From positions 1,240,001-1,304,000 of the forward strand of contig NZ_JALKFS010000005.1 in assembly GCF_023051145.1 (NCBI RefSeq): a stretch of DNA of 64,000 nucleotides. The letters run 5' to 3'. The DNA comes from Williamsia sp. DF01-3. Lineage in GTDB: Bacteria > Actinomycetota > Actinomycetes > Mycobacteriales > Mycobacteriaceae. The notes under the pieces were generated by a model, which was given only the letters and a program-made list of their open reading frames with translations, did no database searches and had not been told where the DNA came from. The position numbers and the translations under genes were made by a program. Shown piece by piece: positions 12,727-14,925 of the stretch (position 1 is the first letter of the stretch; each line of letters begins with the position of its first letter).

Positions 12727-12758
12727 AACCGGCCCACTCCCTCGGGAGTGGGCCGGTT
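12727..12758. terminator. Rho-independent terminator of groEL
   Basis: A perfect 15-base stem (AACCGGCCCACTCCC at 12727-12741 with its complement at 12744-12758) around a 2-base loop, followed by TCGTTTG. It begins 29 bases after the groEL stop. Confidence 0.88.
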
Positions 12759-12776
12759 TCGTTTGTGTGTGTTTGG

Positions 12777-12929
12777 GTGCACGCAAGTTGGTGTCCGGGG
12801 GCTGGATGTGACGTCAGCGGGGTACTTGTGCGCACTCAGCCCCATCGCGCGTGCCTGGTTGCACACAAGGCGGGACCTGAAGGCCGGATGTGACGTCAGG
12901 GACCGATCTGTGTGCACTCAGCCCCGCCT
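12777..12929 (+). repeat. Left repeat array (two 67-bp units) flanking the DUF559 gene
   Basis: Two units, 12777-12843 and 12859-12925, each exactly 67 bases. Each begins with G/TTGCACRCAAG, has a central GGATGTGACGTCA and ends CTTGTGYGCACTCAGCCCC (unit 2 CTGTGTGCACTCAGCCCC). The outer arms are complementary, so each unit can fold into a hairpin, and the centre holds the 8-base palindrome TGACGTCA. The array ends GCCCCGCCT at 12929. The whole array reappears inverted at 13833-13966. Confidence 0.85.
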
Positions 12930-12955
12930 ATACCACTGATGGCGAAGACACGTCA

Positions 12956-12984
12956 CCGGCTATCCACAGGCTGTGGATAGCCGG
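12956..12984. promoter_or_regulatory. 29-bp perfect palindrome upstream of the DUF559 gene
   Basis: CCGGCTATCCACAG (12956-12969), one base, then its exact complement (12971-12984). Each arm contains CTATCCACA, one base off the DnaA box TTATCCACA, in opposite orientations. It ends 11 bases before the GTG at 12996 and may be an operator for the gene product's winged-helix domain, a paired DnaA-like site or an mRNA hairpin. The choice is not decidable from sequence. Confidence 0.6.
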
Positions 12985-12995
12985 ATGCGCGAATT

Positions 12996-13844
12996 GTGTT
13001 TTGCGTCAACCATGATCGGATGGGGGAAGTACGAACACGTGCGCAGCTCTTAGCGGGCGGGATGACCAACCGCGAAGTCTCGCGTCTGAATCGACTATTG
13101 CCTGAGGTCTACTCGACGTCCGACCCGGGATACGTCGAACTCTGTGCGGCAGTCATCCTGTGGAAGCCGGCTGCCGTACTCAGTCACACCACCGCTGCTT
13201 GGTTGTGGGGATTGCTGGAGGACGAGCCCGAGATTGTCGAGGCCACCGTTTCGCCGAGCGTCTCGGTCCGCGGGCCGAGCTGGGTGCGCTTGCATCGGCG
13301 AACCGATGTACACGCGGTGCGCCGCAAAGGGCTGCCGGTGGTGCCAATCGAGCACTGCCTCATCGACGTCGCCACCACGCTTGACCAGCTGGCTCTCGAG
13401 GCTCTGTTCGACGCCGCAATCGGAACGCGGGTGAACTGGCGGGCAGTCGCTCGCCTCTGCGAGCGTTCACCAGGACGCCACGGAATCGTCGCCGTTCGCG
13501 AGCAACTACGCACGTGCTGCCCTCTCACCCGCTCAGAACCGGAGAGATTGGTTGCGCGTGCATTGAGTGCGCGAAACTTCCCGCTCGAGATCAACGCGAG
13601 AGTCGGCCGCTACTACGGCGACCTGGTGTGCCGTCGTGCAAGGGTCATCGTCGAAATCGACGGACGCGAATTCCACACCGACCCTGCAACTTTCAATAAC
13701 GACAGAAAGCGCCAGAACGAACTCGTCGACGATGACTGGCGCATCCTTCGCTACTCGGCCGCGACGGCGATCGCCAGCCTCGACGAAGTCGTCGACGACA
13801 TCATCCGCGTCGTGCGTAAACGTCGCCGAAGCAGGCGGGGCTGA
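12996..13844 (+). CDS. DUF559-domain protein with AbiEi-like N-terminal domain (putative nuclease)
   Basis: 282 aa from GTG 12996; ATG 13020 (MGEVRTRAQLL) is a likely alternative start. Residues about 10-95 resemble the winged-helix AbiEi-type antitoxin domain found in front of many DUF559 proteins (RTRAQLLAGGMTNREVSRL, then VLSHTTAAWLWGL). Residues about 185-275 are a Vsr/PD-(D/E)XK-like DUF559 domain. It has RVIVEIDGREFH with the Glu-x-Asp metal site, then NDRKRQNELV and WRILRYSA. It therefore has the residues of a nuclease, but activity is not established for the family. It lies alone between two inverted repeat arrays, and its TGA stop lies inside the right array. Confidence 0.8.
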   Translation: MFCVNHDRMGEVRTRAQLLAGGMTNREVSRLNRLLPEVYSTSDPGYVELCAAVILWKPAAVLSHTTAAWLWGLLEDEPEIVEATVSPSVSVRGPSWVRLHRRTDVHAVRRKGLPVVPIEHCLIDVATTLDQLALEALFDAAIGTRVNWRAVARLCERSPGRHGIVAVREQLRTCCPLTRSEPERLVARALSARNFPLEINARVGRYYGDLVCRRARVIVEIDGREFHTDPATFNNDRKRQNELVDDDWRILRYSAATAIASLDEVVDDIIRVVRKRRRSRRG

Positions 13845-13966
13845 GTGCACACAAGTAACCCGCCGACGTCACATCCAGCCCTCCTAGGGGACATGCGATG
13901 GGCCTGAGTGCACACAGGATGGTCCACGTCGTCACATCCGGCCGTCGGACAGCGACTCGTGTGCAG
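13833..13966 (-). repeat. Right repeat array flanking the DUF559 gene (inverted copy)
   Basis: Inverted relative to the left array. Unit 3 (13837-13881, 45 bases) lacks the outer arm; unit 4 (13900-13966) is again exactly 67 bases. Read on the minus strand the order is unit 4, the linker ATCGCATG (left-array linker ATCGCGCG), unit 3, then GCCCCGCCT, the same inner end as the left array. About 41 of 45 bases of unit 3 match unit 1. The DUF559 stop codon (13842-13844) is part of the conserved repeat. Confidence 0.85.
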
Positions 13967-14028
13967 CCAGACCCGCCACCCCCACCACCCCACCGCATCA
14001 AATCGCCGCGAGGGGGTATGCGAACTCC

Positions 14029-14925
14029 ATGCAGACCTTCTTGCCGTATCCGGACTTCGCGCGCTCGGCCGCCGTGCTGGACGTGCCGCGGTTGGGGAAG
14101 CAGCGGGTCGAAACACTGCAGATCCTGCGGGCGCTCGAATTGTTCGACTACGGGTGGGGGAGTCATCCGGCGGTGCAGATGTGGCGTGGACACACCCCTG
14201 CCTTGGTTTGCTACGGACTGACCTTCGTCGAGGTGTGGACCGCGGGCGGGCGGGCCGACACCACCGCGGGGCAGATCGCGGAGTTCGCACCGGAAGTGGT
14301 CGGGCGCCCCCAATCGGAGCTGGTGGCCGATGGCCTGATGCCCCCGTGGTGGGACGACGAACGCCTCTACCTCAGTCACCGCGCCGCATTGGTCCGGAAG
14401 GATCCGGAGTTCTACGTCCCCGTGTTCGGGGAGATGGATGGCGACATGCCGTACTTCTGGCCCGACCCTCCAGAAGTCCCGACGCAGCTGCGCACCGGTG
14501 ACCGCACGGTCTGGGTGGTGCGGCCGTCATCTGCAGAGCAGTACGAAGAGTTCAGGCGCCACAGCATCGTCGGTTTCGGGACCGAGTCCGGTATCGATGT
14601 CATCGCGGCGGCAGGTGGCGATCTCCGCGCGCTGCTGAAGGAACGAGCTCCGGGACGTCGGCCGGGCAAGGACCTGCGAGTCCTGGCATCGTTTGTCGGT
14701 GACCTGTCCGTGGGCGACGAGATCGCGGTGCCGATTCCGGACACGTTGGATCTTCACGTAGGAAGGCTGACGGGAGAGTATCAATTCTCGCGCAGTGCAA
14801 CGACTCTCGTTCCGCACCGCAGACGCGTGCAGTGGGAGGGGGTACTCGCCCGCAGCGACGTCATACCGCCCGCACTGTTGCAGAATCCGCGGGCGCTGTT
14901 CCCCGTGCCCGTCGCGCCTCGATAA
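14029..14925 (+). CDS. Pyrimidine-dimer-glycosylase-like (MSMEG_6728 family) protein with C-terminal PUA-like domain
   Basis: 298 aa. Residues 1-145 match the Pyr_excise/MSMEG_6728-type domain: MQTFLPYPDFARSAAVLD at the start, RLGKQRVETLQIL, the HPAVQMWRGH helix and a WWDDERLYLSHRAAL segment. Residues about 160-290 look like the PUA/EVE-like domain seen at the N-terminus of some Mrr-type restriction proteins: TVWVVRP, HSIVGFG, then VGDEIAVPIPD and a HRRRVQWEG strand. I know the first domain as a stand-alone protein; the pairing suggests recognition of damaged or modified bases in DNA (inference). It follows the right repeat array by about 60 bases. Confidence 0.7.
   Translation: MQTFLPYPDFARSAAVLDVPRLGKQRVETLQILRALELFDYGWGSHPAVQMWRGHTPALVCYGLTFVEVWTAGGRADTTAGQIAEFAPEVVGRPQSELVADGLMPPWWDDERLYLSHRAALVRKDPEFYVPVFGEMDGDMPYFWPDPPEVPTQLRTGDRTVWVVRPSSAEQYEEFRRHSIVGFGTESGIDVIAAAGGDLRALLKERAPGRRPGKDLRVLASFVGDLSVGDEIAVPIPDTLDLHVGRLTGEYQFSRSATTLVPHRRRVQWEGVLARSDVIPPALLQNPRALFPVPVAPR

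Follow-up and report, generated by a model that had tools for sequence, protein, structure and literature searches.

RAYT proteins work by Y1/HUH chemistry. They are tyrosine transposases of the IS200/IS605 kind, and their genes are described as single copies of each kind, enclosed by a pair of inverted palindromes that frequently sit directly at the stop codon, with the cognate REP palindromes dispersed outside genes and the trees of palindrome and protein in agreement (PMC2817692; PMC3116915). The EDxHD homing endonuclease I-Bth0305I appears to form a dimer on its target, which spans nearly 60 bp (PMC3943268), and the Caulobacter DUF559 protein VsrA is described as Vsr-like with a predicted role in mismatch repair (PMC12907096). 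The locus reported here carries a DUF559 gene between inverted palindromic units. The preliminary description knew of no system of such form, and the literature searched, in which subscription journals are thinly covered, likewise yielded no earlier description of a DUF559 nuclease-palindrome system. As no described system that we found pairs such a nuclease with cognate palindromes, we regard it as new in kind, while its logic is that of RAYT/REP.

The DUF559 block and its protein

The window, i.e. the stretch of 64,000 nucleotides of Williamsia sp. DF01-3 that was analysed, contains the block between groEL and a pyrimidine-dimer-glycosylase gene (Table 1). The gene had been placed between two inverted unit arrays, and the arrays do match each other in inverted orientation over 77 nt at 77% and over 45 nt at 93% complementary (BLAST E 1.3e-8 and 1.4e-11 in the own genome), the model R1 finding four units. 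Three of these are of equal length, as proposed, at 69 nt by R1 and 67 nt by the earlier edges, the unit without an outer arm being the exception. The palindromic arms described before were found, but not every unit has GTGCACRCAAG, CTTGTGYGCAC and TGACGTCA in exact form; the majority sequence of the window's class (n = 19 units) is TGCACACAAGTCG ... GGCCGGATGTGACG ... ACTTGTGTGCACTCAGGCC. Two further details were seen correctly from the start: both arrays have the same inner end, GCCCCGCCT, mirrored at 12921-12929 and 13833-13841, and the TGA stop codon of the gene (13842-13844) lies within a unit arm. The DnaA-box-like pair upstream of the gene is enclosed by a perfect inverted repeat (12956-12984).

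Table 1 Features of the DUF559 block in the window, its surroundings and one site of solo units in related genomes
Feature	Position	Strand	Evidence or remark
Palindromic unit 1 (outer, left)	12774..12842	+	model R1 78.1 bits, E 9.7e-16
Palindromic unit 2 (inner, left)	12856..12924	+	R1 81.7 bits, E 1.2e-16
Inverted pair of DnaA-box-like 9-mers CTATCCACA / TGTGGATAG	12960..12980	.	between unit 2 and gene
DUF559 gene: AbiEi-like DNA-binding domain and DUF559/Vsr-type nuclease (predicted)	13020..13844	+	Pfam DUF559 4.6e-10
Palindromic unit, inner right, outer arm lost, holds stop codon	13838..13904	-	R1 42.7 bits, E 8.5e-7
Palindromic unit, outer right	13901..13969	-	R1 84.9 bits, E 1.9e-17
Hairpin after groEL, outside block	12727..12758	+	perfect 15-bp inverted repeat, 2 nt between arms
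Pyrimidine-dimer-glycosylase-like gene	14029-14925		window neighbour
Intergenic site with one or two solo units	L353:3015-3075, L358:3019-3218, L375:2925-3083		

The gene probably starts at ATG 13020 (274 aa) and not at GTG 12996, where the frame opens, since homologs, compared by eye, point to the former. One matching copy of it is present in the window genome. Around it, the window encodes Cpn60, pyrimidine dimer glycosylase, DSBA, HSP90 and, with a match below the cut-off, a DUF6264-like protein; no AbiEii (DUF1814) toxin gene was found by domain search among the neighbours, and with no toxin partner beside the window gene a type IV toxin-antitoxin system of the AbiE kind was rejected. A plasmid or phage element was rejected as well, since at 1e-5 a single match (31% identity) turned up among 72,556 plasmid records and no match among 50,697 phage records.

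The Glu-x-Asp residues and the AbiEi-like head named in the preliminary description were both recovered: E220 and D222 are invariant over 76 proteins, and the profile of these homologs matches AbiEi 6y8q (2.5e-7) besides 3hrl (8.2e-13) and 3r3p (2.5e-4). Profile positions 1-169 cover nearly all of AbiEi 6y8q and AbiGI 9hlo, and the C-terminal part matches 3hrl, which is endonuclease-like, and 3r3p, a protein of a mobile intron. PADLOC also assigned the window protein to AbiEi (8.6e-11). The 13 invariant columns include E183, D209, E220, D222, H227, D236, Q240 and N241 (numbered from 12996). The DUF559 and MTES_1575 families were matched in 76/76 members, and none of the six families listed for the 76 homologs is a transposase family; dN/dS was 0.07-0.25 in 10 homolog pairs. 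With the domain match and the conserved acidic and histidine residues, features of Vsr/EDxHD membership are present, and the protein is, as judged from sequence, an AbiEi-type DNA-binding head joined to a predicted nuclease of the Vsr/EDxHD type with invariant acidic and histidine residues. Homologs at 1e-10 were found in 154 of the 301 genomes of the family, and in the libraries searched they are labelled as "unknown function" or AbiEi only.

Units and motifs in related genomes

An inverted match of at least 30 bits between upstream and downstream flanks was found at 51 of 135 homologous loci and at 1 of 234 neighbouring control genes (Fisher 1.4e-24), the unit-flanked genes being above all those of Rhodococcus. 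Palindromic arms (at least 13/14 matches, 44-76 bp across) lie just 3' of the stop codon at 44/135 loci vs 2/161 controls, and arms of at least 13/14 matches lie upstream of the gene at 18/135 vs 2/161. The flank match at 30 bits was absent from 84/135 loci, many of them in Nocardia, and some of these have a unit lost or diverged on one side. Three of 13 more distant loci had a flank match above 40 bits, two in Cellulomonas and one in a Promicromonosporaceae MAG (L329); the gene in the MAG is surrounded by 124-bp inverted repeats (197 bits). The unit sequence differs by gene lineage (TGCACACAAG, TGCACACTATCG, GTGTCCACTATTTCG, TTGCCCGATACT, CGCCCATTCCTTC and others), and in two unit classes the arms remain about 54-58 bp apart.

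A protein paired with its own repeat in the manner of RAYT and REP had been suggested, and the gene-specific flanking units and the solo units found in genomes speak for it. Of 121 loci, 40% have a block whose own two flanks match each other with a local score of at least 30. For cross pairs, sampled up to 1500 per bin of protein identity, this score was reached in 0.2% (identity <45%), 0.5, 7.3, 26.6 and finally 44.8% (identity ≥80%). Unit similarity declines along with protein identity, i.e. palindrome and protein co-diversify, as judged by similarity bins rather than matched trees, and lineage-specific units span proteins 30-100% identical to that of the window.

The search for the unit elsewhere was successful: R1 found three more units in the own genome outside the block, and in relatives the units are class-specific. 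Counting the block, units of the window's class number 7-8 in those four genomes of the genus that carry the gene and 0-1 in the five that lack it. With both strands counted and no more than about 150 candidates scored per genome, class R3 gave 19-25 hits in each of the six genomes that carry its cognate gene, as against 0-13 in the other 31 searched. G196 and G206 had 10 and 13 of these hits, yet no cognate-clade gene among the matches listed, and their units may be relics; units also remain in G001, G004 and G007, three genomes in which the search at 1e-10 gave no homolog. R2 hits were found in 26 of 37 genomes, all 26 from one genus group. Class R3 thus reaches its highest numbers in genomes with its cognate gene. 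Most unit places, on the other hand, stand apart from any DUF559 gene (37 of the 42 loci fetched outside the window's genus), which counts against the proposal.

The 38 fetched loci with solo R2 or R3 units, none of which has a DUF559 homolog, comprise 41 unit places, 37 of them outside predicted genes (called with a simple codon score). Nineteen lie between convergent, 15 between codirectional and three between divergent genes, and four lie inside predicted genes; the 94 background gaps comprise 23 convergent, 48 codirectional and 23 divergent ones. Convergent gaps are therefore in excess among the 37 intergenic units (19/37 vs 23/94, Fisher 0.006) and divergent gaps in deficit (3/37 vs 23/94, Fisher 0.05), and a predicted stop codon lies within 45 bp of 29/37. 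Since solo units often occupy orthologous places, their movement must be slow. At one intergenic site (Table 1), G257 and G264 have two units in direct orientation and G296 has one. A solo unit that relatives have between two genes (L132) is missing from the own genome, which has about 7 kb of other DNA there (L349, C5:786800-797000).

The 9-mer [TC][TCA][AG]TCCACA is present within 150 bp upstream of the gene at 102/135 loci vs 3/153 control genes. Its occurrence follows protein identity, with 59/64 loci at ≥50%, 43/57 at 38-50% and 0/14 below 38%. The strict form TT[AG]TCCACA was found upstream at 60/135 loci vs 0/153 controls, and upstream 9-mers of this type are presumably DnaA boxes. At least two motifs stand upstream at 56/135 loci; of 56 pairs of adjacent motifs, 35 share one orientation at a spacing of 18-19 bp, the window pair being inverted. 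Only 4 of the 38 solo-unit loci have a motif nearby. Because the motif is constant while the units change, a host factor seems the likelier binder of the upstream motifs than the cognate protein, and this constancy suggests that expression or cutting could be tied to DnaA and replication.

Inversion and replacement of the block

In three congeneric genomes (G005, G006 and G008) the flanks are those of the window, and the block between them is reversed. Sequence collinear with the window extends as far as the units or into them, and it is within units that the inverted match starts and stops. By at least one similar flank, 18 of 136 distinct loci, from several genera, are linked to the window's; 17 of the linked loci are oriented one way and the window alone the other way, with no conflict, and the window's orientation is therefore most simply a derived inversion. 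When both flanks were required, the orientations were 1 vs 3 at the window's site, 13 vs 6 at another site and 4 vs 2 at a third, the 13-vs-6 site needing one orientation change on the protein tree. Block inversion has thus occurred at at least three sites between like flanks. A record titled Kitasatospora arboriphila (L259, NZ_JNYV01000008.1) belongs to the window's genus group, and its block shares 93-94% identity with that of the window; the title is probably a mislabelling.

A replacement was found in Rhodococcus sp. 06-235-1A (L296), whose site-1 flanks are 77-80% identical to those of four relatives. There, a block of the site-2 clade (L296:2848-3968) stands in place of the resident site-1 block, exchanged unit to unit. 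It is 88% identical to L268 and groups within the site-2 clade in the tree, and its gene is frameshifted. In this genome the replacing block is present once, with a 113-bp match at 73% elsewhere, and site 2 has its flanks and 3.4 kb of other DNA but no block (G317 site 2). The exchange may have come about by transposition, by break repair or through recombination with DNA from outside.

The three inverted sites and the one unit-to-unit replacement support the proposal that the unit moves or is copied as a block, though moves are rare, the block on the groEL side being old with its 18 linked loci in several genera. To this extent the block is indeed at the same site in relatives, which had been listed as evidence against mobility. 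In the comparison with orthologous sites lacking the block, flanks without a block were found, but the compared sites differ by other DNA or gene order, and among them there was no clean empty site or target duplication. In G007, for instance, the gene order after groEL differs, with the pyrimidine-dimer-glycosylase gene behind a DsbA-like gene and not on the groEL side, and in G000 the place that corresponds to the L132 unit is taken up by about 7 kb of other DNA.

Explanations and comparison with known systems

A chromosomal nuclease-palindrome pair working like RAYT/REP but built from an unrelated enzyme is, in our opinion, the probable explanation. The block consists of one or more units, mostly DnaA-box-like motifs, the gene and one or more inverted units, and each lineage has units of its own; solo units lie near gene ends, and the inversions and the one replacement end at units. 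We infer that the protein is responsible for cutting and mobilisation. The apparent dimer of an EDxHD enzyme on nearly 60 bp and the binding of inverted repeats by AbiEi proteins together suggest that the arms are bound by the head and the core is cut by the nuclease dimer. In such a mechanism, the AbiEi-type head would bind the unit arms, two proteins would dimerise across the palindrome of about 55-60 bp, and the Vsr/EDxHD-type domain would nick or cut the unit core. Repair of the cuts could then spread and duplicate solo units, flip the block and occasionally move it to another site.

The unit was taken as DNA since RNAalifold gave 6 pairs, none with a compensatory change, and the three Rfam matches were all below the gathering scores, so that an RNA reading was rejected. 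As single-stranded DNA, four Rhodococcus units fold strongly (z -7.2 to -9.6), one unit of a congener folds moderately (-3.6), and the window's three fold weakly (0.48, -1.94 and -0.40).

The main rival is a function as operator and terminator, where the AbiEi-type domain of an autoregulated regulator would repress its own promoter at the upstream unit, the downstream unit would terminate and the solo units would be operators of a small regulon. AbiEi and Rv2827c are described as binding 23-bp inverted repeats in their own promoters (PMC7319586), and the upstream units, which end mostly about 60-115 bp before the matched gene start, are well explained in this way. It is nevertheless unlikely to account for the system, as solo units prefer gene ends, the gene has units before and after it, inverted and replaced blocks are bordered by units, and the residues of the nuclease do not vary.

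A homing gene normally interrupts its target site. The gene studied here is flanked by apparently intact units, and no pair of an occupied and a clean empty site was found, the flanks without a block holding other DNA. We therefore consider it quite improbable that the protein is a homing-type endonuclease with the unit as its cut site, the block invading related units by break repair and the solo units being unoccupied sites, even though the profile matches the mobile intron protein 3r3p, the dimer target of I-Bth0305I is given as about 60 bp (PMC3943268) and the block was replaced at a site whose relatives carry related units. Passive palindromes under concerted evolution beside an unrelated gene, with inversions by ordinary RecA recombination, are hardly credible. 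Inverted repeats do invert without a dedicated enzyme, homologous recombination sufficing, and the truncated fourth unit shows decay, but units are gene-specific over the whole range of protein identity, solo copies are class-specific and a flank match is nearly absent from control genes.

Beyond the nuclease-palindrome pair as such, we put forward tentatively that the AbiEi-Vsr nucleases of Actinomycetota could be a second, independently evolved palindrome-mobilising system, each nuclease co-evolving with its own palindrome of about 60 bp, which would be operator, cut site and element end at once, and with activity tied to replication through the DnaA-box-like motifs. Should this hold, the common DUF559 proteins would be nucleases that mobilise or guard palindromes, and the REP/RAYT way of life would have more than one origin. 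One class of palindromes scattered through GC-rich genomes would be accounted for, and studies of DNA recognition would gain a large natural set of matched nuclease/target pairs.

Like insertion sequences with MITEs, the system has ends, a gene and non-autonomous copies. Unlike them, it has no known transposase and nearly no plasmid or phage matches, and gene amplification and target duplication were not seen. With the AbiEi/AbiGi antitoxins (6y8q, 9hlo; Rv2827c) it shares the head, which matches nearly the whole of 6y8q and 9hlo, and AbiEi proteins are described as binding inverted repeats (PMC7319586); it differs from them in the fusion of the head to a nuclease, the lack of an AbiEii toxin beside the window gene and the repeats on both sides. 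The nuclease domain resembles I-Bth0305I (3r3p) by profile, and the reported target of about 60 bp is close to the unit length, whereas, unlike I-Bth0305I and the Vsr-like DUF559 proteins, the gene is free-standing, bounded by palindromes and provided with an AbiEi-type head. The system is not a RAYT because the enzyme family differs, the DUF559 proteins being PD-(D/E)XK/Vsr-type nucleases with an AbiEi-type head and not tyrosine transposases. It also differs from RAYT/REP in its DnaA-box-like motifs, its occurrence in Actinomycetota and the number of solo units, estimated at roughly 3-15 places, whereas REPs are described as usually exceeding 100 copies. Nevertheless, in the window and at the 51 unit-flanked loci the gene lies between inverted palindromes, and these palindromes are dispersed outside genes and co-diversify with the protein, just as in RAYT/REP.
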